The position numbers were made by a program, and so were the translations under genes. DNA of 46,355 nucleotides, from contig PXFS01000029.1 in NCBI GenBank assembly GCA_003564185.1, positions 1 to 46,355 of the forward strand, written 5' to 3'. Position 1 is the stretch's first letter. Every line of letters starts with the position of its first letter. The notes below the pieces were generated by a model. The model did not search any database and was not told the origin of the DNA. It saw only the letters and a list, made by a program, of their open reading frames with translations. Shown piece by piece: positions 1 through 17,087 of this stretch. This DNA is from Flavobacteriaceae bacterium. GTDB taxonomy: Bacteria; Bacteroidota; Bacteroidia; Flavobacteriales; Flavobacteriaceae.

Positions 1-1598
1 ATGACGATGAGTTTAGTATAGGCGAAGTAGTAGCTCCAACGAATATTCAAATTGATGCAGAGATAGAAGGGGCAAGCGAGGATTTTCCGTTTGGTGACGG
101 TTCTGGTTTTGTTGACTTTACGGTAACTGCAGATAATGCTATTAATTTTAGCTTTGATTTTGGAGATGGAGCTACGCAAAGACAGTCCTCTGGTCAACAT
201 AGACATAGGTATACTAGAAACGGTGTAAATGATTATTTAGTTACTGTAACCGCTAGTGGTACTGGTGGAGCAAAAAGTGTTTCAACTATTGAAATATCTG
301 TTGAAAGTCAATTTGATGACCCTGAAACTTTTGAATTTTTAACAGGAGGAGAAGGTCAATCAAAAACTTGGTCAATTGCAAGGAATGAACCAGGACACTT
401 AGGGGTAGGACCTTTAGATAGCTTTAGTCCAGACTTTTTTGCTGCTGCACCAAATCAACTGGCACAATGCTTATATGATGATGAAATTACATTAAGTGCT
501 GGACCAAATAACACCATTTCTTTTGAACATGATAATGTAGATCCAGATGGTGTAGGTGTTACTTTCTTCAATGGTGAATTTAATACTATTGGAGGTGGCG
601 GTGGTCCAGATGACCAATGTCTACCTTTTGATGTATCTGGTCAGAAAAATGTATCTTTAGCTCCTGCTGGATTTGGAACTCCTGAAGATGTGACTACTGG
701 AACCGAATTTACTATTGGTGATGATGGATTCATGGCATATTACATCAACACAAGTACTTACGAGATTCTTGAAATTACCGATGACTTTTTATATGTAAGA
801 GCACTATCAGGTTCAGCTAGTAATCAATTAGCATGGTACCTTAAATTTACTACTGATGCTGAAGGAGAGCAAGACAATACCTTAGAAACACAATTTGAAG
901 ATTTGGTATGGTCTGATGAATTTGATGTAGATGGAATGCCAGATTCAAGCATTTGGAATTTTGAAATAGGTAATGGAGCAGATCAAGGTATTCCAGGATG
1001 GGGTAACCAAGAGCTTCAATATTACACAGATGAAAATGCTATTGTTGATGATGGTAAATTAGTAATTAATCTTGTTGCAGAGCCAACTTTTGGTTTCGAT
1101 TATTCTTCTGCTAGATTAAATACATTAAACAATTTCGGTTTCCAATACGGTAGAATTGAGGTGAGAGCTAAACTACCAGAAGGAGGAGGTACTTGGCCAG
1201 CAATTTGGATGATGGGAACCAACTTCCCGGATATTGGATGGCCAGAATGTGGTGAAATTGATATCATGGAACATAGTGGTAATGCACAAGATGAAATTCA
1301 TGGTACGGTACATTTTCCCGGTAATTTTGGAGGAAACGCTATAGGACAAACCACAGTTCAAGAGGACGTTTCAAACGAATTTAATAACTATACCGTTGAG
1401 TGGGATGAAAATCAAATTCAGTGGGCAATAAATGATCAGGTTTTCTTTACTTTCCAAAATAACGGAGACCTTCCCTTTAACAATGACTTCTTTATATTAC
1501 TTAATGTAGCCATGGGAGGTACATTTGTTGGCAATACTGTAGACCCTAACTTTGAAGAAAGTGCAATGGAAATTGAATACGTAAGAGTATTTCAATAA
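1..1598 (+). CDS. GH16 beta-1,3-glucanase (laminarinase) with PKD domain, 5' truncated by window edge
   Basis: The reading frame is open from base 3 to the stop at 1598, so the gene starts left of the window. In order I see a PKD-like domain (about nt 40-310, with FDFGDGA), a middle module (about nt 320-890, with KTWSIARNEPGHLGVGP) of the kind found in Bacteroidetes surface glycan-binding proteins, and a GH16 catalytic domain from about nt 900. The GH16 signature GEIDIMEHSG gives the nucleophile Glu at nt 1254, the helper Asp at 1260 and the acid/base Glu at 1269. The Met between Asp and the second Glu fits the beta-bulge laminarinase type. The protein ends right after the GH16 fold with no T9SS tail, so it is probably an outer-membrane lipoprotein whose signal lies outside the window. 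Likely role: endo-cleavage of beta-1,3-glucan at the cell surface. A GTG at 690 is internal and is not the start. Confidence 0.9.
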   Translation, partial: DDEFSIGEVVAPTNIQIDAEIEGASEDFPFGDGSGFVDFTVTADNAINFSFDFGDGATQRQSSGQHRHRYTRNGVNDYLVTVTASGTGGAKSVSTIEISVESQFDDPETFEFLTGGEGQSKTWSIARNEPGHLGVGPLDSFSPDFFAAAPNQLAQCLYDDEITLSAGPNNTISFEHDNVDPDGVGVTFFNGEFNTIGGGGGPDDQCLPFDVSGQKNVSLAPAGFGTPEDVTTGTEFTIGDDGFMAYYINTSTYEILEITDDFLYVRALSGSASNQLAWYLKFTTDAEGEQDNTLETQFEDLVWSDEFDVDGMPDSSIWNFEIGNGADQGIPGWGNQELQYYTDENAIVDDGKLVINLVAEPTFGFDYSSARLNTLNNFGFQYGRIEVRAKLPEGGGTWPAIWMMGTNFPDIGWPECGEIDIMEHSGNAQDEIHGTVHFPGNFGGNAIGQTTVQEDVSNEFNNYTVEWDENQIQWAINDQVFFTFQNNGDLPFNNDFFILLNVAMGGTFVGNTVDPNFEESAMEIEYVRVFQ

Positions 1599-1728: not shown

Positions 1729-3039
1729 ATGAATCAAGTTAACTTTCTACTTTTATTGATTGTTACATTGCTTTTTAGTTGTAACAATATGGAAGAGCAA
1801 TACAGCGTTGATATCCATAAGTCTGATGAGGGTTTTCAACTTCAAGTAAATGGAGAGGATTTTTTTGTTAATGGTATGAATTGGGATTACTTCCCCATAG
1901 GCACAAATTATGACTATTCACTTTGGAACCAATCTGAAGAAATAATTCAAAAGGCTCTAGACTACGAAATGCAGCTATTAGAAGACATGGGAGTAAATGC
2001 CATTAGAATTTACACAGGCATCCCACCTAAATGGATCAGTTATATTTATGAAAATTATGGAATCCACACCATGATTAATCATTCTTTTGGTAGATACGGT
2101 CTACAAATCAATGATGAATGGGTTGCTGAAACAGATTATGCAGACCCTAAAACACAAGAAATTTTGTTGGCAGAAATTGCAGAGATGGCCAACACCTACA
2201 ACAATACACCAGGTTTATTAATATATCTTATAGGAAATGAAAATAATTACGGCCTTTTTTGGCAAGGAGCAGAAACTGAAGATATACCTGATGAAGAAAC
2301 ACAAATTGAACAAGTTGGCGAATACCAAGCAAGACCAATGTATCAATTAATGAACCAAGCTAGCCAAAAAATTAAAGAAATTGACCCAAATATACCTACT
2401 GCTATTTGCAACGGTGATTTAATGTATATAGAGATTATTCAAGAAGAATGTCAAGAGGTAGATATATTTGGAACTAATATTTACCGCGGCAAATCTTTTG
2501 GCGACGCTTATAAAACGGTTAAACAGAAATATGATAAACCAGTTTTGTTTACAGAGTTTGGTGCTGATGCATACAATGCTATTTTAGAAGAAGAAGACGA
2601 GATAAGTCAAGCTTATTTCTTAATTCATAATTGGAAAGAGATTTATGCCAACGCTGCGGGACTAGAAAAAACAGGAAATTCAATTGGAGGCTTTACTTTC
2701 CAATTTAGCGATGGATGGTGGAAACACGGTCAAACCTATAATTTGGATGTGCAAGACACTACCGCATCATGGGTGAATGGGGGTTATTATCTTGACTACC
2801 AGCCTGGAGAAAACAACATGAACGAAGAATGGTTTGGCATATGTGCCAAGCAAAAACCTAATGACCAAGGTTTATATGAATTACAACCAAGGTTAGCATA
2901 TAAGAAATTGCAAAAGATGCACCAGATTAATCCATATCATAAGGATTGGGATTTAGAAGCTATTGAAGAGTTAAGTAATTCACTTTTGCAAAATATTCAT
3001 CCCGAAATAGAAGAAATAAAATTGAAAATAAAAAAATAA
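1729..3039 (+). CDS. Clan GH-A glycoside hydrolase lipoprotein (GH2 catalytic-domain-like)
   Basis: A 436-residue protein with a lipoprotein signal ending LLFSC (Cys18), so it is exported and lipid-anchored. The body is a TIM barrel related to the C-terminal catalytic domain of GH2, without the GH2 sugar-binding and immunoglobulin-like domains. The likely acid/base is Glu171 in IGNENNYG and the likely nucleophile Glu276 in LFTEFGADA. A short segment before the barrel (VNGEDFFVNGMNWDYFP) resembles the entry strand of GH2 and GH5 barrels. It is the first gene of the glucan operon and lies 4 bases before the phosphorylase gene. Its place in a laminarin-type locus suggests a beta-glucanase or beta-glucosidase. 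GH158 or another clan GH-A family is possible; I cannot fix the family or bond specificity by eye. Confidence 0.75.
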   Translation: MNQVNFLLLLIVTLLFSCNNMEEQYSVDIHKSDEGFQLQVNGEDFFVNGMNWDYFPIGTNYDYSLWNQSEEIIQKALDYEMQLLEDMGVNAIRIYTGIPPKWISYIYENYGIHTMINHSFGRYGLQINDEWVAETDYADPKTQEILLAEIAEMANTYNNTPGLLIYLIGNENNYGLFWQGAETEDIPDEETQIEQVGEYQARPMYQLMNQASQKIKEIDPNIPTAICNGDLMYIEIIQEECQEVDIFGTNIYRGKSFGDAYKTVKQKYDKPVLFTEFGADAYNAILEEEDEISQAYFLIHNWKEIYANAAGLEKTGNSIGGFTFQFSDGWWKHGQTYNLDVQDTTASWVNGGYYLDYQPGENNMNEEWFGICAKQKPNDQGLYELQPRLAYKKLQKMHQINPYHKDWDLEAIEELSNSLLQNIHPEIEEIKLKIKK

Positions 3040-3043
3040 AACT

Positions 3044-6000
3044 ATGACCCAGATGGAGGTTGATAAAAACAAATCTAATACGAGTGACTTAGAAAAAGTG
3101 ACGATTAATGGAGAGAAATTTTTGAAAATTACTCATTCCAACAATTTACGACCATTTTTTATGAGTATTGTGAGCAATTCTAACCATTGGATGTTTCTTT
3201 CAAGCAATGGTGGTGTAACAGCAGGCAGAAGAAACTCAGAATCGGCTTTATTTCCTTACTACACTGACGATAAAATCACAGAATCTTACCTCACTACAGG
3301 AAGTAAAACAATAATCAAAGTAAATACTGAATCAGAACGTATTTATTGGGAGCCTTTCACCAACAAATCCCTAGAAAAATTTAATGTAAGTAGACATCTT
3401 TACAAAAACATTTATGGTAATAAAGTGCTTTTCGAAGAGATTAATCATGATCTTCAAATTAGCTTTAAGTACCAATTGGCAACCAGTGATTTATTTGGAT
3501 TTGTAAAAGAATCAAGTATTCAAAACCTAGGCGTTTTAAGTGCTGATATTGAAGTTATTGATGGTTTTCAAAACATTTTGCCAGCAGGGGTAGAAAGTGA
3601 TCTTCAAAGACAAAGCAGTAATTTAGTAGACGCTTACAAACGCAATGAACTTGAATCCAAAACAGGTCTTGGTATATTTGCACTTAGTGCTGTTCCTGTT
3701 GATAAAGCAGAACCAAGTGAAGCCCTTCTTGCCAATGTAGCTTGGTCGCTCAGCGTTAAAAACCCTACTTACTTACTTTCCTCTTTACAATTAGCCAATT
3801 TTAGAAGAGGAGAATCTATACAACAGGAAGATGATGTTAAGGCAGAAAAAGGAGCCTACTTAATTCATCAATCCATGGATTTACCCGCTAATGAATACTC
3901 TTCTTGGAAAATTATTGCAGATGTAGATTATAATCATGCTCGTTTGATTGAATTACAGTCTAAAATTCAGAAAAACGATTTAGACCAAGTGATAAAAGAA
4001 GATATTGAATTGGGTACAACACGCTTAAAGCAATTAGTTGCTGGAGCAGATGGTATACAGCATTCAAATGATGATTTGCGAGATATTCGTCATTTTTCTA
4101 ATTCGCTTTTCAACATTATGCGAGGTGGAATTTTTGATGATAATTACAGCATAGATAAAGTAGATTTTACCAACTATCTTCAAAAAGCAAATAATGCACT
4201 TTATCAAGAGCTAAGTTCTTCGCTTAATAAACTTTCAAGAACTTTTTCTCATCAAACATTAATGGAACTTAGCAAAACCATAAATCATCCTGATTTTACC
4301 CGCTTATCCATTGAGTATTTGCCTTTAAAATTTAGCCGAAGACATGGTGATCCTAGTCGCCCGTGGAATCAATTTTCAATCAACACAAGAGATGAAGATG
4401 GTAAAAAGGTCTTAGATTATGAAGGAAACTGGAGAGACATTTTCCAAAATTGGGAAAGCTTAGCCCATTCATATCCCAACTTTATTGAGGGGATGATTTT
4501 CAAGTTTTTAAACGCCACTACATTTGATGGTTACAACCCTTACCGAGTAACTAAAGATGGTTTTGATTGGGAAATTATTGAACCTGATGATCCCTGGTCG
4601 TATATCGGCTATTGGGGAGACCACCAAATCATCTATTTGCTTAAATTTTTAGAATTTTATGAGGCTGCCAAGCCAGGGGCTATGCAATCTTGGTTTAATA
4701 AAAACGTATTTGTATATGCCAATGTTCCCTACCTTATTAAACCTTATGCAGAGATTCTTAAGGACCCAAAAGATACTATAGTTTTTGATCATGATTCAGA
4801 TGCAAAGATTAGGGCTAATAGAGATAAAATTGGTGCAGATGGGGCATTATTAAGAGGCCTTAAAAATGATGTGATCCAAGTAAATTTCATAGAAAAAATT
4901 CTGGCTACCACCTTGGCTAAATTGTCCAATTTTATCCCAGAAGCAGGTATTTGGATGAATACACAGCGTCCAGAATGGAATGACGCCAACAATGCTTTAG
5001 TTGGGAATGGAGTCTCTATGGTTACCTTAGCTTACCTAAGAAGATTCTTAGGCTTTTTTAAAGAAGTTTTCCATCCGCTTCCAGCCAATGAAAAGTATTC
5101 CATTTCAGCTGAATTAGGGACTACGTTTTACCAAATGAAAGCTACCTTTAGTCAGTACAAAGAACTACTTCATAATTCTTTTAACGACCAACAAAGAAAA
5201 CAGATTTTAGATGAACTAGGGGTTTCAGCAAGTGATTTTAGAACAAAGATATATCATTCAGGTTTTTCAGGAGAGTCAGTTCAAATTTCAGTAAGTGAAA
5301 TTAAGGATTTTATTACTACTACTTTGGCTTACCTTGACCATAGTATCATTGCCAATGAACGCCAAGATGCACTTTATCATGCCTATAATTTAGTTACTAT
5401 TTCAGAAGAAAAGGTGGAGATAAGCCGTTTAGATGAAATGCTGGAAGGTCAAGTTGCTATTCTTAGTTCAGGAACTTTAAATGGTGAACAATCCTTAAAC
5501 TTACTCAATGCACTTAAGTCTAGCGCGCTTTTTAGGCCTGATCAATACTCTTATTTATTATATCCAAATAAAGAATTAAAAGGCTTTTTAGATAGAAATC
5601 AAGTGCCTGAAAAGTTGGTGAAATCCTCTAAATTATTATCAGAAATGATTCAAAAAGAGGTGACTAGCATTATAGAAAAAGACATTGATGGGAATTACCA
5701 TTTTAATGCTAAATTTAACAATGCAAAAAAGCTTCAAAGCGCCTTAGAAAATCTGCCAACTCAATACCATAACTTGGTCAAAGAGGAAAAACAACTTATT
5801 TTAGCTATTTACGAACAAGTATTTAACCATAAATCGTTTACAGGAAGGTCAGGTACATTTTACGGCTATGAAGGTTTAGGTTCAATTTATTGGCATATGG
5901 TCTCTAAACTCCAGCTAGCGGTTCAAGAGACAAGCATAAAGGCTATTGAGGATAATGCTTCAGCAGAATTAATAGGGAAGTTATTAGAGCATTATTATGA

Positions 6001-6490
6001 AATTAATGCGGGAATTGGAGTTCATAAATCTCCTAAGTTGTATGGTGCATTCCCAACCGATCCGTATTCGCATACACCTTATGGAAAAGGAGCTCAACAG
6101 CCAGGAATGACAGGGCAGGTTAAGGAGGATGTTTTATCTAGATTTGGAGAACTAGGATTACAAGTCAAAAATGGGAAATTAATATTCTCTCCAGATTTAC
6201 TAAGAAAAGAAGAATTCTTGAAAGAAGAAGCTACCACAACTTATTTTGATTTAAGTAATCAAAGCCATGAATTAAAGTTAGCACCTAATTCACTCTTCTT
6301 TACTTATTGTCAAGTTCCAGTAGTTTATTATATGTCAAACAAAAATAAAATTTTGCTGACGTGGAATTCAGGAAAGAAAGAAGAAATTGAAGGCAATGAG
6401 CTATCAGAAAAAATAACTGACAGTTTATTTGGTAGAAAAGCTGAAATAAAGCTAATTCAAGTTCATTTAGCCAGTGAAATATTAAAATAA
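3044..6490 (+). CDS. Beta-1,3-oligoglucan phosphorylase, GH149-like
   Basis: A 1148-residue protein with no signal peptide or membrane segment, hence cytoplasmic. The length fits GH149 (or GH161) rather than the roughly 800-residue GH94 enzymes. Conserved stretches include SRRHGDPSRPWNQFSIN near residue 435, WRDIFQNWE near 463 and RPEWNDANNALVG near 642; Asp647 in EWND matches the catalytic Asp of the GH94 DWND motif. Family members split beta-1,3-gluco-oligosaccharides with phosphate to release alpha-glucose-1-phosphate, saving one ATP per glucose. It is packed between two exported glycosidases in the operon, 4 bases after one and overlapping the next by one base (TAATG). A second Met codon at 3053 is an alternative start. 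GH161 or a divergent GH94 are the main alternatives. Confidence 0.75.
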   Translation: MTQMEVDKNKSNTSDLEKVTINGEKFLKITHSNNLRPFFMSIVSNSNHWMFLSSNGGVTAGRRNSESALFPYYTDDKITESYLTTGSKTIIKVNTESERIYWEPFTNKSLEKFNVSRHLYKNIYGNKVLFEEINHDLQISFKYQLATSDLFGFVKESSIQNLGVLSADIEVIDGFQNILPAGVESDLQRQSSNLVDAYKRNELESKTGLGIFALSAVPVDKAEPSEALLANVAWSLSVKNPTYLLSSLQLANFRRGESIQQEDDVKAEKGAYLIHQSMDLPANEYSSWKIIADVDYNHARLIELQSKIQKNDLDQVIKEDIELGTTRLKQLVAGADGIQHSNDDLRDIRHFSNSLFNIMRGGIFDDNYSIDKVDFTNYLQKANNALYQELSSSLNKLSRTFSHQTLMELSKTINHPDFTRLSIEYLPLKFSRRHGDPSRPWNQFSINTRDEDGKKVLDYEGNWRDIFQNWESLAHSYPNFIEGMIFKFLNATTFDGYNPYRVTKDGFDWEIIEPDDPWSYIGYWGDHQIIYLLKFLEFYEAAKPGAMQSWFNKNVFVYANVPYLIKPYAEILKDPKDTIVFDHDSDAKIRANRDKIGADGALLRGLKNDVIQVNFIEKILATTLAKLSNFIPEAGIWMNTQRPEWNDANNALVGNGVSMVTLAYLRRFLGFFKEVFHPLPANEKYSISAELGTTFYQMKATFSQYKELLHNSFNDQQRKQILDELGVSASDFRTKIYHSGFSGESVQISVSEIKDFITTTLAYLDHSIIANERQDALYHAYNLVTISEEKVEISRLDEMLEGQVAILSSGTLNGEQSLNLLNALKSSALFRPDQYSYLLYPNKELKGFLDRNQVPEKLVKSSKLLSEMIQKEVTSIIEKDIDGNYHFNAKFNNAKKLQSALENLPTQYHNLVKEEKQLILAIYEQVFNHKSFTGRSGTFYGYEGLGSIYWHMVSKLQLAVQETSIKAIEDNASAELIGKLLEHYYEINAGIGVHKSPKLYGAFPTDPYSHTPYGKGAQQPGMTGQVKEDVLSRFGELGLQVKNGKLIFSPDLLRKEEFLKEEATTTYFDLSNQSHELKLAPNSLFFTYCQVPVVYYMSNKNKILLTWNSGKKEEIEGNELSEKITDSLFGRKAEIKLIQVHLASEILK

Positions 6491-7773
6491 TGCCTATGAA
6501 ACCAACTGCTTACATCGTATTAATTATAGGAATTGTGTTCATGATTTCCTGTGAGCAGAAGGATCAAAAATCAGAATCAATGCGTAAAGATTTAAATGCC
6601 GAAGAAATTCTAGGTAATCCTGATTACTTAGCTATTTCGTATGGAGGCTATAGAAGAGAAACAAGGGATATACAACCAACTGTTGATGAGTTGAAAGAGG
6701 ATTTAAAAATTCTCTATGCAATGAAGATTAGAATTTTGAGAACATACAACGTACGTTTACCACACGCTTCTAACGTGTTGAAGGCGATTAAAGAATTAAA
6801 GGATGAAAATCCGGAATTTGAAATGTATGTGATGCTTGGGGCTTGGATAGATTGTAAAAATGCTTGGACAGACCTTCCTTTAAATCATTATGAGGAAAGT
6901 GTTTACAACGAAGCTGAAATTGAACGTGCAGTTGAATTAGCACAACTTTACCCTGACATTGTTAAAGTAATTGCGGTTGGTAATGAGGCAATGGTAAAAT
7001 GGGCAACAGCTTATTTTGTTCAGCCTAATATAATTTTAAAATGGGTAAATCACTTACAGCATCTAAAACAAAACGGTGATTTAGATGAAAATCTTTGGGT
7101 AACCTCTTCAGATAATTTTGCTTCATGGGGTGGCGGTGGTGCGGAATACCACGTACCTGAGTTAAATGAATTAATTGAGGCCGTAGATTTTTTGTCAATC
7201 CATACCTATCCCATGCATGATACACATTACAACCCTGTATTTTGGGGGGTATCTCCAAAAGAAACAGACCTGAGTAATGTTCAAAAAATGGATCAAATTA
7301 TGAAGCGTTCTCTAAATTATGCAGTATCTCAATACGATAGTGTGATGAACTATATGAAGTCTCTGAAAATTGACAAACCTGTTCACATTGGAGAAACGGG
7401 TTGGGCAAGTATTTCTTCAGGATATTATGGACTTAATGGGTCTAAAGCTACTGATGAATATAAACAAGCACTGTATTACAGAAAGATGAGAGAATGGACA
7501 AATGAAAATAATATTGCTTGTTTTTATTTTGAAGCTTTTGATGAACCTTGGAAAGATGCGCAAAATCCTAGAGGGTCAGAAAATTTCTTTGGACTATTTA
7601 CGGTAGATGGTCAAGCTAAATATGCCCTTTGGGATTTAGTAGATCAAGGATTATTTGAAGGATTAGAAAGAGGTGGAAAACCTATTACAAAAACCTACAG
7701 AGGGAACGTTAAAAACCTTTTATTGGATGTTGTAATGCCACCAGAATTAAGAGAAGTTGTCGTAAATCATTAA
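6490..7773 (+). CDS. GH17 beta-1,3-glucanase lipoprotein
   Basis: A 427-residue enzyme. The lipoprotein signal ends FMISC, so it is exported and lipid-anchored. The GH17 barrel shows its acid/base Glu166 in AVGNEAMVKW and nucleophile Glu302 in IGETGWAS. GH17 enzymes are retaining beta-1,3-glucan hydrolases; in flavobacterial laminarin loci exported members act on laminarin or its oligosaccharides. The start at 6490 shares one base with the stop of the phosphorylase gene (TAATG), which favours translational coupling; an ATG two codons later (6496) would give the same signal peptide. This GH17 is clearly divergent from the two GH17 units downstream: its barrel is longer and it lacks their FYFSSFDESWK motif (it has FYFEAFDEPWK). 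Confidence 0.9.
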   Translation: MPMKPTAYIVLIIGIVFMISCEQKDQKSESMRKDLNAEEILGNPDYLAISYGGYRRETRDIQPTVDELKEDLKILYAMKIRILRTYNVRLPHASNVLKAIKELKDENPEFEMYVMLGAWIDCKNAWTDLPLNHYEESVYNEAEIERAVELAQLYPDIVKVIAVGNEAMVKWATAYFVQPNIILKWVNHLQHLKQNGDLDENLWVTSSDNFASWGGGGAEYHVPELNELIEAVDFLSIHTYPMHDTHYNPVFWGVSPKETDLSNVQKMDQIMKRSLNYAVSQYDSVMNYMKSLKIDKPVHIGETGWASISSGYYGLNGSKATDEYKQALYYRKMREWTNENNIACFYFEAFDEPWKDAQNPRGSENFFGLFTVDGQAKYALWDLVDQGLFEGLERGGKPITKTYRGNVKNLLLDVVMPPELREVVVNH

Positions 7774-7784
7774 AACAGAAAGCA

Positions 7785-9290
7785 ATGAAATTACACTATT
7801 TTTTCTCCCTAAAAATTTTATTACTTATGTTATTCAGCTCTTGTGAAGAAAACAAAGATAAATTACAGCTTGAAGTTTTTGAAACATCAAGGTCTGGTCA
7901 TCAGCTACAAAAGATAGAAAATGTTGATGAGGGTGTTGATAAACCTATTCAAATTCAAATCAATCCAGAAAAAACTTACCAAACTTTAATTGGTTTTGGG
8001 GGCTCATTTACAGAATCTTCAGCCTACTTGTTAAATCAATTAAGTAAAGAAAACAGAAAGAAAATAATTGATGCTTATTTTTCAGATCAAGGAGCTAAGT
8101 ACTCTTTAACTAGAACCCATATGAACTCCTGTGACTTTTCTTTAGGTCAATATAGTTATGCGCCTGTTGAAGGAGACCTAGAATTAGAACACTTTTCTGT
8201 AGAGGAAGATGAGGATGATATTATTCCTATGATTAAGGAGGCTATGAAAGCTTCATCAGAAGGTTTTAAAATACTTTCCTCTCCATGGACAGCTCCACCC
8301 TGGATGAAAGATAATAAGGATTGGGTAGGAGGAAAATTAAAAGAGGAATTTTATCCAACTTGGGCTTTATTTTTTTCTAAATACGTAGATGCGTATGCAA
8401 AACATGGAATTGATATTTGGGGTTTTACAGTAGAAAATGAACCTCATGGAAATGGTAATAATTGGGAAAGTATGCACTACACTCCCCAAGAGATGACTAA
8501 ATTTGTAAATAACCATTTAGGTCCACAGCTGGAAAAAGATGGGAAACAAAATGTTAAAATTTTAGGATACGACCAAAATAGAGAAGGCTTAAGAGAATGG
8601 GTGGATGAAATGTTTGACGAGCGTCATCAACCAAACTACTATGATGGTACCGCTGTCCATTGGTACGAAAGTACGTTTAAGGTGTTTTCTGAGGAATTGC
8701 AATACGCAAGAAAAAAAGCCTCGGAAAAAATATTGCTACAAACTGAAGCTTGTGTTGATGATCAAGTTCCTGTATGGCAGGAAGATGACTGGTATTGGAG
8801 GAAAGAAGCTACCGATTGGGGCTTCACTTGGGCACCTGAAGAACGAAAACACTTACACCCCAAATACCGTCCTGTTTATCGGTATGCTAGAGATATTATT
8901 GGATGCATCAATAATGAAGTTGAAGGGTGGATAGATTGGAATATGGTATTAGATAGACAAGGAGGGCCAAATTGGTTTGAAAATTGGTGTGTGGCTCCAG
9001 TCATTGTAGACCCTGATAAAGATGAGGTATATTTTACGCCATTGTATCATGTCATGGCTCATTTTAGTAAATTTATTCGTCCAGGAGCTAAGCGAATTGA
9101 CTACAAAATTAATGAAGATGCTGATCTTTTAGTTACTGCCGCTACTAATCCTGATGGTAGTCATATAGTAATTGTTTTTAATACTAGCAAAAAGCTTAAA
9201 AATTTTGAATTGCAACTGGGTAATCAATCTTCAGTGGTGAGCATTAGTCCACAAGCATTACAAAGTATTGTTATTCAAAATAAAACTTAA
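7785..9290 (+). CDS. GH30 beta-glucosidase or beta-1,6-glucanase lipoprotein
   Basis: A 501-residue lipoprotein (signal ending LLMLFSSC). GH30 landmarks are present in order: GFGGSFTESSAYLLNQLS, SPWTAPPWMKDN, the acid/base Glu219 in TVENEP and the nucleophile Glu321 in LLQTEACVD, followed by a C-terminal beta-domain. GH30 enzymes of laminarin loci in marine flavobacteria remove beta-1,6-linked glucose side chains, and I infer that role here. It follows the GH17 lipoprotein by 11 bases and precedes the transporter fusion by 5. The subfamily (GH30_1 against GH30_3) cannot be fixed from motifs alone, so exo or endo action is open. Confidence 0.9.
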   Translation: MKLHYFFSLKILLLMLFSSCEENKDKLQLEVFETSRSGHQLQKIENVDEGVDKPIQIQINPEKTYQTLIGFGGSFTESSAYLLNQLSKENRKKIIDAYFSDQGAKYSLTRTHMNSCDFSLGQYSYAPVEGDLELEHFSVEEDEDDIIPMIKEAMKASSEGFKILSSPWTAPPWMKDNKDWVGGKLKEEFYPTWALFFSKYVDAYAKHGIDIWGFTVENEPHGNGNNWESMHYTPQEMTKFVNNHLGPQLEKDGKQNVKILGYDQNREGLREWVDEMFDERHQPNYYDGTAVHWYESTFKVFSEELQYARKKASEKILLQTEACVDDQVPVWQEDDWYWRKEATDWGFTWAPEERKHLHPKYRPVYRYARDIIGCINNEVEGWIDWNMVLDRQGGPNWFENWCVAPVIVDPDKDEVYFTPLYHVMAHFSKFIRPGAKRIDYKINEDADLLVTAATNPDGSHIVIVFNTSKKLKNFELQLGNQSSVVSISPQALQSIVIQNKT

Positions 9291-9295
9291 GGAAT

Positions 9296-11863
9296 ATGTC
9301 TAATGAAAACATAAATAAAGCACATAAAGTTCCGGTAGGTCAAAAGGCTGCTTTTGGAGCAGGTCATTTAGTATTGAACTTGCTACCTGGTGCACTAGCA
9401 GTATTTATGTTTTTTTTAGTTACAGCTTTTGGAATGAATCCTTTTCTAGCAGGTCTGTTAGGAGGTATACCAAGAATTTTTGATGCACTTACAGACCCTA
9501 TTATGGGGTTTATTTCAGATAATACTAAATCTAAATTTGGAAGAAGAAGGCCCTACATTTTTATGGGGGCTTTATTAAGTGGTATTTTGTTCGCACTTTT
9601 ATTTCAATTAAATGAAGACAATTCAGTCCTGTTTAACTTTATCTACTTCTTGGTACTATCCTTATTCTTCTTGATTGGAAATACCATGTTTGCTACACCT
9701 TTAGTTGGTTTAGGTTATGAAATGACTCCCGATTATAATGAGCGTACTAGATTAATGGCATTTGCTAATACTATGGGGCAAATAGCTTGGATGTTAGTGC
9801 CTTGGTTTTGGGTGGTAATTGCAGACCCACTTGTTTTTCCAATTGACGAGGAGACTTTACGATATATAGCTGAATTAGGTCTTTCGGGCGAAGATTTACA
9901 AAAAATAACCGATGAAAAACTTCAAGCTACAGGAGTGAGGAATCTATCCTTGCTAGTTGGATTGGGCTGTGCTGTAATTGGTATACTACCAGCGTTATTC
10001 TGTAAAGGAATGGATCCTGGGGATATGGAAAACAGAAAGAAAATTACCCTAGGAACTTTAAAACAAACCTCTAAAGATTTATTTGATGGAATAAAGCAGG
10101 TTTCAGAAAATAAGCCTTTCATGAAGCTTTGTGGGGCTACCTTTTTAGTTTTCAATGGCTTTCAGATTGTTGCGTCTTTTAGTTTTTTTATAATTGTTTT
10201 CTACATCTATAATGGAGATTATGGATCAGCTGCCAATTGGCCCGCATGGTTTGCTTCACTTACCGCTTTTGTAACTGCTTTTTTAATCATTCCTATTATC
10301 TCTAAAATAGCAGATATCTTCGGTAAGAAAAAAGCTTTTATCATTTCTACCGTAATATCAATAATAGGATATTGCTTAAAATGGTGGGGGTTTGATAATG
10401 AGCTAAACGCAAGATTTAATGAAACTTCCGTTGGTCAGAACTTGAATTCATTTGTGATCTCTGTGTTTAATAAAATCGATCCTTTCTTAGATAGCATAGG
10501 AATGCATTGGTTTAGTATTGATGCTTCAAATGGAGGTCCTTGGCTGATGTTCCTTCCCATTCCACTAATGGCATTTGGATTGGGTGGTCTATTTACGTTA
10601 ATGATGAGTATGACCGCAGATGTTTGTGATTTAGACGAATTAGAAAACGGTAAGCCTAGAAAGGAAGGTACTTTTGGAGCCATATACTGGTGGATGGTAA
10701 AGTTAGGTCAAGCTATAGCTTTAGTTTTAGGAGGTGCCATTCTTTCACTGATTGGTTTTGATGAAAGTGCAGCCACTCAGACGGCAGAAAGTATGTTAAG
10801 GCTAAGAATAGCTGATATTATAATTCCAGCAGTAACCGCGGCTATTGCAATTTGGATCATATGGTCTTACAGTTTAGATGAAAAACGTGTGAAAAAAATT
10901 GGAGAAGAACTAAAGCGAAGAAATGCTGAACCAAAGAAAATAACTTCATCTGGATATTTAAGAGGCCTTAAAATAGATAACTTAAATAGTGAAAATGATC
11001 ATCGATATGATGTTGATTTTTCTAAAATGTCTCAAAAGGAAATACAAAATCTATTTATTACTAACCTGAATGAAGGATTGTATGGCATATGCTTTAGCCC
11101 ATATGAAGATGGGCAGGATCAAAACGATAAACTTTCCAAAGAACAAGTAAGAAGAAGAACAAAAATTATTCAGCCACATACCCAATGGGTACGTTCTTTT
11201 TCATGTACAAATGGTAATCAGTATATCCCTGAAATAGCTAAGGAAAACAACTTAAAAACAGTGGTTGGTGCATGGATAAGTGATGATGAGAAAAGAAACA
11301 AAGAAGAAATTAAAAATTTAATAAGTTTAGCCAAATCTGGTAATGTAGATGTTGCAGTTGTAGGAAATGAAGTTTTACTCAGAAATGAATTATCAGAAAA
11401 CGAATTGTTAAACTATATTAATCAAGTTGCTGAGAAAATTCCTAAAAATATTCCAGTAGGCTATGTAGATTCTTACTCAATTTATGATCAATACCCTAGT
11501 TTAATACAAGCTTGCGATATACTCCTTATTAACTGCTACCCCTTTTGGGAAGGTGTTGATGTTTCTAAATCAGCTGCCTACTTAAGGCATATGTATAAAA
11601 TCATTGCTGACCAATCCGGAGGTAAAGAGGTATGGATTTCAGAAACAGGATGGCCCAGTGATGGAGAATCAACTCATCTTTCAAAACCTTCCAACATCAA
11701 CGTAATGAAATATTTTATTAATGTAAATAAATGGGCCAAAAAAGAAGATATTAAGTTATTTTATTTTTCTTCTTTTGATGAATCTTGGAAAATTCATCAT
11801 GAAGGCGACGTTGGCCAACGTTGGGGAATTTGGGACAAACACGAAAAATTAAAATTTAGATAG
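9296..11863 (+). CDS. MFS (GPH-type) sugar symporter fused to a cytoplasmic GH17 domain
   Basis: An 855-residue single reading frame with two parts. Residues about 15-535 form a 12-helix transporter of the glycoside-pentoside-hexuronide:cation type, with ALTDPIMG near 64-71 and KFGRRRPYIF near 80-89. Residues about 570-855 form a full GH17 domain with acid/base Glu692 (VVGNEVLLRNE) and nucleophile Glu783 (ISETGWPS). Twelve helices put both ends in the cytoplasm, so the glycosidase sits at the exit of the transporter. Inferred role: uptake of beta-glucan oligosaccharides coupled to their hydrolysis. The next gene is a free copy of the same GH17 type, so the fusion probably arose by duplication followed by read-in of one copy. 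I see no stop or frameshift between the parts. Confidence 0.9.
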   Translation: MSNENINKAHKVPVGQKAAFGAGHLVLNLLPGALAVFMFFLVTAFGMNPFLAGLLGGIPRIFDALTDPIMGFISDNTKSKFGRRRPYIFMGALLSGILFALLFQLNEDNSVLFNFIYFLVLSLFFLIGNTMFATPLVGLGYEMTPDYNERTRLMAFANTMGQIAWMLVPWFWVVIADPLVFPIDEETLRYIAELGLSGEDLQKITDEKLQATGVRNLSLLVGLGCAVIGILPALFCKGMDPGDMENRKKITLGTLKQTSKDLFDGIKQVSENKPFMKLCGATFLVFNGFQIVASFSFFIIVFYIYNGDYGSAANWPAWFASLTAFVTAFLIIPIISKIADIFGKKKAFIISTVISIIGYCLKWWGFDNELNARFNETSVGQNLNSFVISVFNKIDPFLDSIGMHWFSIDASNGGPWLMFLPIPLMAFGLGGLFTLMMSMTADVCDLDELENGKPRKEGTFGAIYWWMVKLGQAIALVLGGAILSLIGFDESAATQTAESMLRLRIADIIIPAVTAAIAIWIIWSYSLDEKRVKKIGEELKRRNAEPKKITSSGYLRGLKIDNLNSENDHRYDVDFSKMSQKEIQNLFITNLNEGLYGICFSPYEDGQDQNDKLSKEQVRRRTKIIQPHTQWVRSFSCTNGNQYIPEIAKENNLKTVVGAWISDDEKRNKEEIKNLISLAKSGNVDVAVVGNEVLLRNELSENELLNYINQVAEKIPKNIPVGYVDSYSIYDQYPSLIQACDILLINCYPFWEGVDVSKSAAYLRHMYKIIADQSGGKEVWISETGWPSDGESTHLSKPSNINVMKYFINVNKWAKKEDIKLFYFSSFDESWKIHHEGDVGQRWGIWDKHEKLKFR

Positions 11864-11866
11864 GTT

Positions 11867-12787
11867 ATGACGTATAGAAAAGAACAAGAAATAAACGAAT
11901 TACAAGAGCGATTTTTAGCTTCTCTTGTGGCGAATAAAAGTTATCCGATTCAAGCTTCTGAAGAAGAACTTAAAAAGATATTTCACCAGTTGCTAAAAAC
12001 TAAGCTACACGGCTTGTGTTTTAGTATGTATGAAGATGGACAAGAGCCCGGTGATCACATTTCAGAAGAACAGGTGTTGAGGCGAATGAAAATTTTAAAG
12101 CCTCACATGAAATGGGTGCGTTCTTTTTCCTGTATAGAAGGGAATGAGTTTGTTCCAAAAGTAGCCAAGCAACTTGGAATTAAAACTTTGGTTGGGGCTT
12201 GGTTAAGTGATGATGAAGAAAAAAATAGAGAAGAGATTGATGCACTAATTCAAATGGCTAACCAAGGTCTTGTTGATATTGCAGCAGTAGGAAACGAGGT
12301 ATTATACCGTAATGAACTTACATTAGATCAATTAATTGGTTATATGCAAGAAGTACGAGCAAAAATACCAGCTGATATACCTATTGGCTACGTAGATGCG
12401 TATTATGAATTCTCTAGCCATCCAGAATTAGTTGAAAATTCAGATGTTATCTTAGCTAATTGTTATCCATTTTGGGAAAGTTGTCAATTTGATTATTCTT
12501 TGGCACATATGCAACAGATGTGCGGTCAAGCCTTAAGTGTTGCCAAAGGCAAAAAAGTTATTATTACTGAAACAGGATGGCCAAGCCAAGGAGAATCTCT
12601 AGGGGCTGCTCAGCCTTCTTATATCAATGCATTAAAATACTTTATCAATGCCCAATTATGGGCAAAAGAAGCACAAATTGAAATGTTTTATTTTTCTTCT
12701 TTTGACGAATCTTGGAAAGTTGGAGCTGAAGGAGATGTTGGTGCTTACTGGGGCCTTTGGGATAAAAATGAAAAATTGAAATATTAG
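11867..12787 (+). CDS. Cytoplasmic GH17 glycosidase, paralogue of the fused domain
   Basis: A 306-residue GH17 protein without signal peptide or membrane helix, beginning 3 bases after the fusion gene. Catalytic residues are Glu144 (AVGNEVLYRNE) and Glu235 (ITETGWPS). It aligns along nearly its whole length with the C-terminal domain of the preceding protein, sharing YEDGQ, WVRSFSC, GAW-SDDE, NCYPFWE, FYFSSFDESWK and a closing GLWDK-EKLK. An N-terminal helix of about 45 residues also has a counterpart in the linker of the fusion. Likely action: hydrolysis, or possibly transglycosylation, of short beta-1,3-gluco-oligosaccharides in the cytoplasm beside the phosphorylase. GH17 includes transglycosylases, so the reaction is not certain. 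Confidence 0.88.
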   Translation: MTYRKEQEINELQERFLASLVANKSYPIQASEEELKKIFHQLLKTKLHGLCFSMYEDGQEPGDHISEEQVLRRMKILKPHMKWVRSFSCIEGNEFVPKVAKQLGIKTLVGAWLSDDEEKNREEIDALIQMANQGLVDIAAVGNEVLYRNELTLDQLIGYMQEVRAKIPADIPIGYVDAYYEFSSHPELVENSDVILANCYPFWESCQFDYSLAHMQQMCGQALSVAKGKKVIITETGWPSQGESLGAAQPSYINALKYFINAQLWAKEAQIEMFYFSSFDESWKVGAEGDVGAYWGLWDKNEKLKY

Positions 12788-12800
12788 ATTATAGTCTATA

Positions 12801-15092
12801 ATGAAACAACTCAACATATATTTAATTTTAGTAATTATGGTTTTTGCCGGTGCTTGTAGTAGTGATCCGAATACGCCTAATAAGAATACCGATTTAATTG
12901 ATGCCAAAGTAGATTCTTTGATGTCATTAATGACTTTAGAAGAAAAAATTGGTCAAATGAATCAATATTCTGGATTTATGGATTTTACAGGCCCAAGACC
13001 TAAAGAAGGACAGCAGGCAAAAAAATTAGAACATTTAAAAAAAGGTTGGGTAGGCTCTATGCTTAACGTTCATGGTGTTGAAAATGTAATGGCCGTCCAA
13101 AAAATTGCAGTTGAGGAAAGTCGATTAGGTATTCCTTTAATAATGGGCTTTGATGTCATTCATGGCTACAAGACAATTAGCCCAATCCCTTTAGCAGAAA
13201 CGGCTAGTTGGAATTTGGAGGCCATACAGAAATCTGCTGAAATGGCTGCTGAAGAAGCTAGTGCTGCTGGAATTCATTGGACCTTTGCACCTATGGTAGA
13301 TATTTCCAGAGATGCTCGTTGGGGAAGAGTAATGGAAGGTGCTGGCGAAGATCCCTACTTGGGAAGTTTGGTAGCTAAAGCTAGAGTAAAAGGATTTCAA
13401 GGAGATGATTTATCAGCACCAAATACTTTAGCGGCAACTGCAAAACATTTTGCTGGATATGGATTTGCAGAATCTGGCAAAGATTACAATACTGTTGATA
13501 TTGGAACTTCAACATTGCATAACATGGTTAACCCTCCTTTTAAAGCAGCCGTAGAAGCGGATGTAAAAACTTTCATGAATGCTTTTAATGTACTTAATGG
13601 AATTCCTGCTACAGGGAACAAATATTTACAAAGAGATTTATTAAAAAACCAATGGGATTTTAAAGGCTTTGTTGTTTCTGATTGGGATTCGGTAGGCGAA
13701 ATGATAGCACATGGTTTTGCTAAAGATGGAAGAGCTGCTGCTAAATATGCTGTAAGTGCAGGAAGTGATATGGATATGGAATCCTATCATTATATAGAAC
13801 AATTAGCTAGCTTGGTTGAAGATGGTGAAGTTAGTGAAGACTTGATTAATGATGCCGTAAAACGGATTTTGAAAGTCAAATTTGAATTAGGACTCTTTGA
13901 TAACCCCTACCAATATTGTGATGAAAAACGAGAGAAGGAAGTTATAGGTCAACAAAAATTTCACGATCAAGTCTTTGATTTAGCAAAACAATCAATTGTC
14001 TTATTAAAAAATGAAAACAATTTGCTTCCGCTGAAAAAGTCAGGTCAAAAGATCGCTTTGATAGGTGAATTAGCAGCAGATAAAACTTCGCCGTTAGGAA
14101 ATTGGATCATTGCCGCAGAGGATAATTCAGCAGTGAGTGTTCTGGAAGGCTTAGAAAAATATGATGCCACAAATGAAATTACTTTTGAAAATGGTGTAAA
14201 GCTGGTGACAAGTCAACCTACATTTGCTCAAGAACTTAAAATAAATAATACTGATTCAGCTGGAATTGCAGAAGCTGTAGCCAGTGCTAAAAATGCAGAT
14301 GTGGTAGTGATGGTGTTGGGCGAACATGGCAGACAAAGTGGTGAAGGTAGAAGCAGAACTTCACTGGATTTACCAGGGTTACAACAACAAATGCTGGAAG
14401 CAGTTTATGAAGTAAACCCAAATATTGTTTTGGTACTTAATAACGGAAGACCACTTACCATTAATTGGGCTGACAAACACATACCCGCTATTGTTGAAGC
14501 TTGGCAGTTGGGCTCTCAAGCGGGAAATGCTATTGCAAGTGTGTTGTATGGAGATTACAATCCAAGTGGAAAGCTCCCTATGAGTTTTCCAAAAAATGTA
14601 GGTCAAATCCCACTGTATTATAATTATAAATCTACGGGAAGACCTGCTCCAAAGGGAGAAAATGAAGTATTTTGGTCAACTTATATAGACTCTTCAAATG
14701 ATCCTCTATATCCATTTGGTTACGGTTTAAGCTACACCAATTTTGATTATAAGAATTTGACTATTGATAATCGATATAAAGAAGAAGGGAAGGTATTGGT
14801 TAGTGTTGAGGTGCAAAATACAGGAAAACGAGAGGGAATTGAAACAGCTCAACTTTATTTACAAGACGAATATGCAAGTGTTACAAGGCCTGTAAGGGAG
14901 CTAAAAGGTTTTAAGCAAGTTGAGTTGGCGCCAGGAGAAATTAAAACTATAGAATTCGAATTAACTAATGCTGAATTAGGCTTTTATGATAATGATGGGG
15001 AGTGGTTGGTTGAGTCAGGAAGTTTTCATATTTATTTGGGAGGTGACTCTACTTCTCAATTAAAACAAAGCTTTCAAATTACAGTGAAATGA
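12801..15092 (+). CDS. GH3 beta-glucosidase lipoprotein (BglX-like)
   Basis: A 763-residue lipoprotein (signal ending FAGAC). It has the GH3 N-terminal barrel with nucleophile Asp294 in GFVVSDWDS, the KHFAGYG motif upstream of it, the second alpha/beta sandwich domain, and a C-terminal fibronectin III-like domain (TAQLYLQDEYASVTRPVREL). The length matches periplasmic BglX-type enzymes. Likely role: removal of terminal glucose from laminari-oligosaccharides in the periplasm or at the outer membrane. It is the last gene of the tightly packed operon, 13 bases after the GH17 gene; a 72-base gap follows. Confidence 0.92.
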   Translation: MKQLNIYLILVIMVFAGACSSDPNTPNKNTDLIDAKVDSLMSLMTLEEKIGQMNQYSGFMDFTGPRPKEGQQAKKLEHLKKGWVGSMLNVHGVENVMAVQKIAVEESRLGIPLIMGFDVIHGYKTISPIPLAETASWNLEAIQKSAEMAAEEASAAGIHWTFAPMVDISRDARWGRVMEGAGEDPYLGSLVAKARVKGFQGDDLSAPNTLAATAKHFAGYGFAESGKDYNTVDIGTSTLHNMVNPPFKAAVEADVKTFMNAFNVLNGIPATGNKYLQRDLLKNQWDFKGFVVSDWDSVGEMIAHGFAKDGRAAAKYAVSAGSDMDMESYHYIEQLASLVEDGEVSEDLINDAVKRILKVKFELGLFDNPYQYCDEKREKEVIGQQKFHDQVFDLAKQSIVLLKNENNLLPLKKSGQKIALIGELAADKTSPLGNWIIAAEDNSAVSVLEGLEKYDATNEITFENGVKLVTSQPTFAQELKINNTDSAGIAEAVASAKNADVVVMVLGEHGRQSGEGRSRTSLDLPGLQQQMLEAVYEVNPNIVLVLNNGRPLTINWADKHIPAIVEAWQLGSQAGNAIASVLYGDYNPSGKLPMSFPKNVGQIPLYYNYKSTGRPAPKGENEVFWSTYIDSSNDPLYPFGYGLSYTNFDYKNLTIDNRYKEEGKVLVSVEVQNTGKREGIETAQLYLQDEYASVTRPVRELKGFKQVELAPGEIKTIEFELTNAELGFYDNDGEWLVESGSFHIYLGGDSTSQLKQSFQITVK

Positions 15093-16094: not shown

Positions 16095-17087
16095 ATGGCC
16101 ACACTTAAAGAGTTAGCAAAATCATTAAATGTTTCAATTTCTACTGTTTCAAAAGCTTTAAATGACGCTGATGATATTGGCGAAGAAACTAAAAAAAGAG
16201 TAAAAGAATTGGCTGAAACACTCAATTATAAACCAAATAAATTTGCCCTGGGCTTAAAAACACGTAATTCAAGAACTATTGGAGTAGTGCTGCCAGATAT
16301 TCAAAATCCATATTTTGCAGAGGTTCTCTATGGTATTGAAAAAGAAGCTTTAGAGGCAGGTTATGACACTTTAATTTGTGTGAGTAATGAGTCCTATCAG
16401 CAAGAAGTAAAAAGTGTTAGAATGCTAACTGAAAATCTAGTTGACGGAATAATCATCTCAATTTCTAAAGAAACCCTTAGCCTTAAAGATTTTGCTCATT
16501 TATCTAGCTTAGCATCCAAAAAGATAGAGTTGCTGCAATTTGATCGTGTATCTCCAGATTTGGATTGTGATTCTGTACAGATAGATGATCAAGAAAGTGT
16601 TAGAAATGCAACACAACAGCTTATTGATTCAGGAAGAAAAAGAATTGCCTTAATCAGCGGCTTAGGAAATTTAAATGTTGCTAAAAATAGAATTCAAGGC
16701 TATAAAGCTGCCTTAAAACAAAATGAGATCTCAAAATTCATTAAAATATTAGAAGTTGATAGTTTAGAAAAAACACATTTTCAATTTAAAAACTTTATTG
16801 AACAAAATACTTTTGATGCAGTAATATCTATTGATAACAAGTCAGGTATTATCTTTCAAAACATAATGCAACATCATTTTCCAGAGCGAATAAAAGATGT
16901 TAAAATCATAAGTTTTGTTCATGAAAAGGATGCATTACTTACTTCACCACCTTTAAATTATATAAATCAAAGAGGAGCAGAAATAGGTTCGTTTTCATTT
17001 GGTCTTTTAAAAGATAGGATTAGCAATAAGCAACTTCAAAAACAGGCCATACACAAAAAATTAACAGCAAAAATAAATTTTAACTAA
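16095..17087 (+). CDS. LacI-family transcriptional regulator
   Basis: A 330-residue regulator with an N-terminal LacI helix-turn-helix (TLKELAKSLNVSISTVSKALN, then the hinge region NYKPNKFALGLKTRNSRTIG) and a periplasmic-binding-protein-like effector domain (VVLPDIQNPYFAEVLYGIE). It sits right after the glucan locus and most likely senses a sugar and controls that locus, but a strong terminator separates it from the operon. The two-residue-spaced STVSKAL recognition helix is intact. I found no convincing operator palindrome near 1729 or 15165. Its 3' end overlaps the convergent EamA gene by 8 bases. Confidence 0.9.
   Translation: MATLKELAKSLNVSISTVSKALNDADDIGEETKKRVKELAETLNYKPNKFALGLKTRNSRTIGVVLPDIQNPYFAEVLYGIEKEALEAGYDTLICVSNESYQQEVKSVRMLTENLVDGIIISISKETLSLKDFAHLSSLASKKIELLQFDRVSPDLDCDSVQIDDQESVRNATQQLIDSGRKRIALISGLGNLNVAKNRIQGYKAALKQNEISKFIKILEVDSLEKTHFQFKNFIEQNTFDAVISIDNKSGIIFQNIMQHHFPERIKDVKIISFVHEKDALLTSPPLNYINQRGAEIGSFSFGLLKDRISNKQLQKQAIHKKLTAKINFN

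Follow-up and report, generated by a model that had tools for sequence, protein, structure and literature searches.

Laminarin is a major marine carbon store, and the closest described counterpart of the gene analyzed here lies in a laminarin locus of Formosa strain B (Unfried et al. 2018, PMC6246565). There, FORMB_24740 joins an N-terminal 12-helix MFS transporter and a C-terminal GH17 in one gene. The enzyme part, FbGH17B, hydrolyzes only debranched laminarin, releases glucose, and is described as an exo-beta-1,3-glucosidase. The same paper calls the fusion common in marine Flavobacteriia, offers coupling of uptake to hydrolysis as a possibility, and states that the authors knew at the time of no other bacterial transporter–CAZyme fusion. 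The MFS–GH17 pairing has thus been known since 2018, and novelty of the pairing, of which a sequence-only reading of our locus knew no described case, is not supported; the coupling idea is also in print (PMC6246565).

A second set of relatives consists of free enzymes. MlGH17B of Muricauda lutaonensis, a transglycosylase, is a free GH17 that shares 53% identity with FbGH17B; its Tyr136 is replaced by Met in FbGH17B, and a transglycosylase activity of the latter may have been overlooked (PMC11005184). In Muricauda loci, a GH30 and an MFS gene lie between two GH17 genes (PMC13188888), and the accessible portion of PMC11345257 reports GH17 with one MFS gene and does not mention a fusion. What is new here is the split of fused and free GH17 by paralogue and residue and the apparent exchange of transporters within a genus.

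The fused gene and its laminarin-type locus

The window, the whole stretch of DNA that was analyzed, comprises 46,355 nucleotides from a Flavobacteriaceae bacterium (contig PXFS01000029.1). It carries a laminarin-type cluster in the order GH16, GH2-like, GH149, GH17A-like, GH30, fusion, free GH17, GH3, a protein with a type IX sorting tail, and LacI:

3–1598, plus strand: GH16 with a PKD domain, truncated by the window start (profile match)
1729–3039, plus strand: GH2-like TIM-barrel protein (Pfam Glyco_hydro_2_C, E 2.7e-5)
3044–6490, plus strand: GH149 beta-1,3-glucan phosphorylase (NF058639, 1735 bits vs. cut-off 1150)
6490–7773, plus strand: GH17A-like endo-laminarinase with a lipoprotein-like N-terminus (Pfam 26.7 bits, just below the cut-off of 28.2; role taken from gene order in PMC6246565 and similarity among loci)
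7785–9290, plus strand: GH30, probable beta-1,6-glucosidase with a lipoprotein-like N-terminus (Pfam; role from PMC6246565)
9296–11863, plus strand: fused MFS(MelB-like)–GH17 gene, 855 aa (ORF, Pfam, NCBIfam)
9296–10927, plus strand: transporter half, residues 1–544, 12 helices and a tail helix at 529–544 (AlphaFold, Pfam MFS_2, MelB 4m64)
10795–10915, plus strand: zone of the transporter/GH17 recombination border, helix 12 and tail, gene nt 1500–1620 (sliding windows)
10928–11005, plus strand: linker, residues 545–570, of low model confidence (pLDDT)
11006–11860, plus strand: GH17 domain, residues 571–855 (Pfam, AlphaFold, RmBgt17A 4wtp, Foldseek)
11369–11371, plus strand: Glu692, proton donor by alignment
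11378–11380, plus strand: Leu695, aligned with Tyr136 of MlGH17B and Tyr102 of RmBgt17A (transglycosylation)
11642–11644, plus strand: Glu783, nucleophile by alignment
11867–12787, plus strand: free GH17, 306 aa, MlGH17B-like, with the Tyr kept (GNEVLYRN; Pfam, motif)
12801–15092, plus strand: GH3 beta-glucosidase with a lipoprotein-like N-terminus (Pfam, NCBIfam)
16095–17087, plus strand: LacI-type regulator downstream of the cluster (profile match)

The five genes from GH17A-like through GH3 are spaced by 3–13 bases. Judged by eye, the GH17A-like, GH30, and GH3 proteins have lipoprotein-like starts, and no signal sequence is visible in GH149 or the free GH17. As in FORMB_24720–24740, the fusion follows GH17A and GH30 (PMC6246565), and the window protein shares with FORMB_24740 the design of a 12-helix MFS followed by GH17 in one gene of a laminarin locus. 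The two differ in that residue 695 is Met in FbGH17B and Leu here, and in the transporter clade, for which the fusion of a Formosa MAG (L109) was compared as stand-in. The assignment to beta-1,3-gluco-oligosaccharides in the sequence-only reading fits the locus (GH16, GH149, GH17A-like, GH30, and GH3) and the characterized homologue FbGH17B.

The fused gene reads as a single ORF without internal stop, as that reading had proposed. Pfam MFS_2 (PF13347) covers residues 20–529 (E 2.3e-56, 191.6 bits vs. cut-off 27), and Glyco_hydro_17 (PF00332) scores 52.5 bits against a gathering cut-off of 28.2 (E 7.6e-14), with the best stretch at 770–854. The GPH model TIGR00792 stays below its curated NCBIfam cut-off (170.8 vs. 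231.35 bits), though with E 3.9e-50. Of the claimed 12-helix GPH-type symporter, the symporter-like fold, the 12 helices, and the MFS_2 match stand, but the GPH assignment falls short of its cut-off.

An AlphaFold model built with 39 homologues (mean pLDDT 83.9, pTM 0.63) shows 12 long membrane-type helices and then a C-terminal alpha/beta domain. The helices span residues 14–43, 49–75, 85–104, 111–142, 147–175, 198–229, 273–304, 315–342, 344–365, 422–451, 459–485, and 497–522; we grouped the helix pieces into 12 by our own reading of the model and used them in place of hydropathy, whose 15 overlapping peaks left one helix undetected. The transporter half resembles MelB (4m64, E 9.3e-14), with an MFSD2A chain (8d2s) scoring higher (1.3e-15), and the enzyme half resembles RmBgt17A (4wtp, E 1.9e-32); the top 11 Foldseek matches were chains of MFSD2A, MelB, and RmBgt17A (4wtr, 4wtp). 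The model is least confident at residues 541–570 (pLDDT of 46, 43, and 57 in 10-residue blocks, followed by 89 at 571–580), and segment 545–579 is the least alike in six of the eight genus pairs compared. Taken together, the two observations favor loose tethering over a rigid channel.

MelB-type symporters (PF13347) share the fold and the 12 helices, and both termini of MelB are cytoplasmic; MelB is not known to carry a C-terminal enzyme, unlike the window protein. If the latter is oriented like MelB, its C-terminal GH17 would lie on the cytoplasmic side, as the sequence-only reading suggested, and the positively charged tail after helix 12 agrees with this placement. Two transporter loops, 176–197 (9821–9886) and 366–421 (10391–10558), are longer, contain helices, and face away from the C-terminus, and would be periplasmic in that orientation. 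Most of both is absent from the aligned fusion of another genome (G038, L024).

Fused and free GH17 domains as two paralogues

Our alignment held 184 distinct GH17 domains, 55 fused (21 from the genus of the window) and 129 free, taken from 140 loci; domains scoring below 300 bits with a custom GH17 profile are not in the counts. Both catalytic residues named in the sequence-only reading, Glu692 and Glu783, are present and invariant across all 184. The Tyr/Trp/Glu set on the aglycone side of GH17 beta-1,3-glucanosyltransferases is incomplete in the fused domain, which has Leu695, Trp751, and Glu752 and so lacks the Tyr. MlGH17B and RmBgt17A (4wtp) have the GH17 fold, the catalytic Glu pair, and the aglycone-side Trp and Glu in common with it, but they are free transglycosylases with Tyr where the window protein has Leu695. 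Their counterpart in the window is the free GH17 at 11867–12787, which is 52% identical to the fused domain.

The difference at position 695 runs through the whole alignment, from which the residue counts come (the motif of L019, for instance, being GNETLMR). Fused domains have Leu in 41 cases, Met in 6, His in 4, Gln in 3, and Tyr in 1; free domains have Tyr in 125 and Leu in 4. The Tyr that a studied relative requires for transglycosylation is thus replaced in 54 of the 55 fused domains. The exceptions are one fused domain with Tyr (L074) and four free domains with Leu (L036, L116, L085, and L110). Positions 834, 835, and 842 likewise separate fused from free domains, L074 and L110 being left out. 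In a tree thinned at 82% identity, from which rows with fewer than 230 aligned residues were dropped (49 fused and 78 free rows), every fused row except L074 falls outside the free clade (support 100), and the domain of the window belongs to the fused group together with that of the Formosa MAG (L109), our stand-in for FbGH17B. Judging from the trees and residues, the fused GH17 and the adjoining free GH17 are different paralogues, and the split leads us to predict that the former is a hydrolase and the latter a transglycosylase. We rejected the notion that the Tyr difference arose in many independent events, as on the tree it mostly marks one old division. We also rejected, for this family, an origin in which the free GH17 downstream had just been joined to the transporter, because the two are separate paralogues and because 31 of the 34 fused loci in named genomes keep a free GH17 as well, one of them (L110) on the opposite strand. 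Two of the remaining three (L088, L109) end at a contig end right after the fusion, and L091 has sequence beyond. These named-genome loci, the best 80 out of 561 confirmed stretches, are no even sample; the 46 without fusion include 43 with one free GH17, two with two, and one with none.

L074 (4980–7427, Paucihalobacter ruber) encodes an 815-aa transporter–GH17 that keeps the Tyr, sits on a very long branch, and adjoins a free GH17; its placement in the tree is unsure, and it may be a separate, independent fusion.

The fusion is widespread in the genus, which by its sequences is probably Psychroflexus: G018 and P. maritimus (L104) have identical transporters, and the loci of P. curvus (L031) and P. 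montanilacus (L032) agree in lengths and profile scores with G012 and G007, respectively. The whole fused frame is found in 20 of the 27 genus genomes, with a single fused copy in each. In one more (G005) it is interrupted by contig ends, two (G018, G023) have the locus with unfused transporters, and four (G002, G006, G009, and G016) gave no match. We considered G032 and G023 as a second kind of fusion and rejected them on account of a stop between the genes. Psychroflexus maritimus (G018; L025/L104) retains the locus with the free GH17 alone and with an unfused transporter that belongs to yet another lineage, so the fusion can be absent.

More widely, a match to the whole protein was found in 29 of 60 relatives, the window's own genome among them. 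Matching GH17 occurs in 33 of 395 genomes of an order-wide sample, in six of them in a frame of at least 780 aa, and in 37 of 395 genomes of a phylum-wide sample, in 15 of them in such a frame; these long frames were counted by length alone, and the two samples overlap in genomes. The spread that the sequence-only reading had proposed to search for extends over Flavobacteriaceae, Cyclobacteriaceae, Lewinellaceae, Saprospiraceae, and Microscillaceae. A Rubrivivax MAG (Pseudomonadota; L110) has a fusion (4935–7343) and, on the opposite strand, a 453-aa GH17 (7429–8790) with Leu at the Tyr position; this fused locus reflects either transfer or misbinning. One locus (G386:C63:78539-80296, L125) has a tandem pair of free GH17 matches and no fused frame among its matches, and two distant matches of 31–33% identity (G505:C16:75968-76765 and G551:C10:118343-119128) lie in frames that, at 543 and 552 aa, exceed the length of a GH17 alone.

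Apparent exchange of transporter halves within the genus

The two halves of the gene give conflicting trees. All 20 complete fused GH17 domains of the genus form one clade (100/99) within the wider fused group, in a tree with 21 other fused and 11 free rows picked by hand. The transporters of the same 20 fusions fall into three clades, A (the window and L002–L005), B (10 rows), and C (5 rows), each grouping with good support with unfused transporters of other genera (29 unfused rows, hand-picked). Constraining the 20 transporters to one clade costs 309 log units and is rejected (p-AU 1.6e-8). On the GH17 tree, the transporter type switches at least seven times, and monophyly is rejected for each of types A, B, and C (p-AU 7e-47, 4e-6, and 7e-59, respectively), the tested groups having been defined after inspection of the trees. 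In a thinned tree with 52 of 127 transporters, the fused transporters from outside the genus, except L074, are on a different main branch; the transporter half of the window is not in their clade but sits among unfused transporters. Its identity is 81% to the unfused L064, 57% to L074, the nearest fused one outside the genus, 48% to the next, and 45% to that of the Formosa MAG fusion (L109).

The position of the change was localized with sliding windows over 19 of the 20 loci; L002 was omitted because little sequence flanks it downstream. DNA distance correlates with transporter type at 0.09–0.30 in windows wholly within GH30, up to the start codon, at 0.50–0.82 in windows from nt 5 to 1621 of the gene, at 0.37 in nt 1502–1671, and at 0.02–0.28 in the windows that follow, across GH17 and the free GH17. 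As the type labels derive from the transporter tree, a rise within the transporter is to be expected, and the fall outside is the informative part. The pairs L003/L018 and L016/L015, the further basis of the border zone, differ in opposite directions. In L003/L018, protein identity is 69% in the transporter (residues 1–496) and 90% in GH17 (580–855), with upstream DNA identity of 86–91% dropping to 74–81% in the last windows before the gene; in L016/L015, it is 94% in the transporter and 64% in GH17, with 86–93% in the DNA of the free GH17. A third pair of different types, L006/L015, shows little contrast (80% and 79%). The windows place the exchange borders at the ATG and in the last helix and tail (around nt 1500–1620). 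The inspected unfused relatives of types A–C end in ERRGEL-like tails, and the fused proteins continue past this point.

Within the genus, GH17 seems to have stayed attached through several replacements of the transporter half, a result that we have not found in print in the open-access literature; the papers retrieved there on domain shuffling, by their titles and the starts of their abstracts, include none on transporter–GH17 exchange, and for laminarin and GH17 in Psychroflexus that literature yielded a paper on Gramella. The conflict between the two trees is probably caused by recombination. Mantel correlations are 0.67 for GH30 and free GH17, 0.55 for GH30 and fused GH17, 0.40 for GH30 and transporter, and 0.33 for transporter and fused GH17. 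Of 2,000 label permutations, none reached the observed difference for the transporter, whereas GH30 had 58 such permutations, GH17 had 22, and the free GH17 had 9; this weak same-type signal in the flanks and GH17 indicates that some common descent remains. The signal would also fit a conflict created by hidden paralogy or uneven rates, but the block-shaped identity profiles in both directions, the presence of just one fused copy per genome in all 20, and the well-supported nesting with unfused genes of other genera make such an origin very improbable.

Proposed role of the fusion

We consider it likely that the protein is a tethered importer-hydrolase, an inner-membrane importer of laminari-oligosaccharides with a cytoplasmic exo-GH17, whose transporter is exchangeable. 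In such a system, GH30 and the GH17A-like enzyme, lipoproteins by their N-termini, would remove branches from laminarin and cleave it outside the inner membrane, and the symporter half would take in the short debranched oligosaccharides. GH17, held at the cytoplasmic end by a loose linker, would trim the chains to glucose, an exo activity presumed from a single homologue, FbGH17B, and the remaining chains would pass to the free GH17, a probable transglycosylase, and the phosphorylase GH149. In Psychroflexus, recombination at the start codon and at helix 12 and the tail would have replaced the transporter, involving at least three transporter lineages with unfused genes in other genera, and the fused-type GH17 would have stayed.

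The window comes from a draft assembly of 173 contigs, and an assembly artefact could in principle have joined two genes. We rejected this explanation, to which we assign a negligible probability, as the joined frame is conserved in the genus, including the single-contig assemblies G019 and G025, and as a published homologue, FORMB_24740, exists (PMC6246565); the sequencing error that the sequence-only reading had named as a refutation is not borne out. What the join does is less clear-cut. It could be neutral, or merely set stoichiometry or place, with GH17 acting as any cytoplasmic enzyme would; the low confidence at residues 541–570 and a model from which no docking can be read (pTM 0.63) suit this, as do the 46 unfused loci among the best 80 of 561 in named genomes and the unfused G018 and G023, but the frame stayed joined despite repeated transporter exchange and fusions occur in five families. 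Alternatively, the tethered exo-hydrolase could catch the oligosaccharide at the transporter exit and so pull import. The predicted cytoplasmic side, the homologue's exo activity, and the repeated retention of the join would fit such coupling; against it, the linker is loose and poorly conserved, and GH149 and the free GH17 could lower the free oligosaccharide untethered. Within the tethered importer-hydrolase reading, we regard coupling and mere tethering as about equally likely, and neither on its own as the probable answer. The retention of the join through repeated exchange suggests that it has some value, while the loose linker and the unfused members of the genus suggest that it is not essential.

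More tentatively, the gene may be a two-slot cassette selected for the join itself and, with its neighbors, a cytoplasmic beta-1,3 counterpart of the maltodextrin system. Importers would then pass between genera like cartridges, with the exo-GH17 remaining attached. In this analogy, which is our own assumption, the fused GH17 presumably corresponds to the exo-hydrolase MalZ, the free GH17 to the transferase MalQ, and GH149 to the phosphorylase MalP; we found no open-access paper joining MalQ, MalP, or MalZ with laminarin. The apparent natural half-exchange has left nearly identical GH17 domains joined to different transporters, as well as the converse, and L003/L018 and L016/L015 are ready-made pairs for probing the importance of the join and the contribution of the transporter half.
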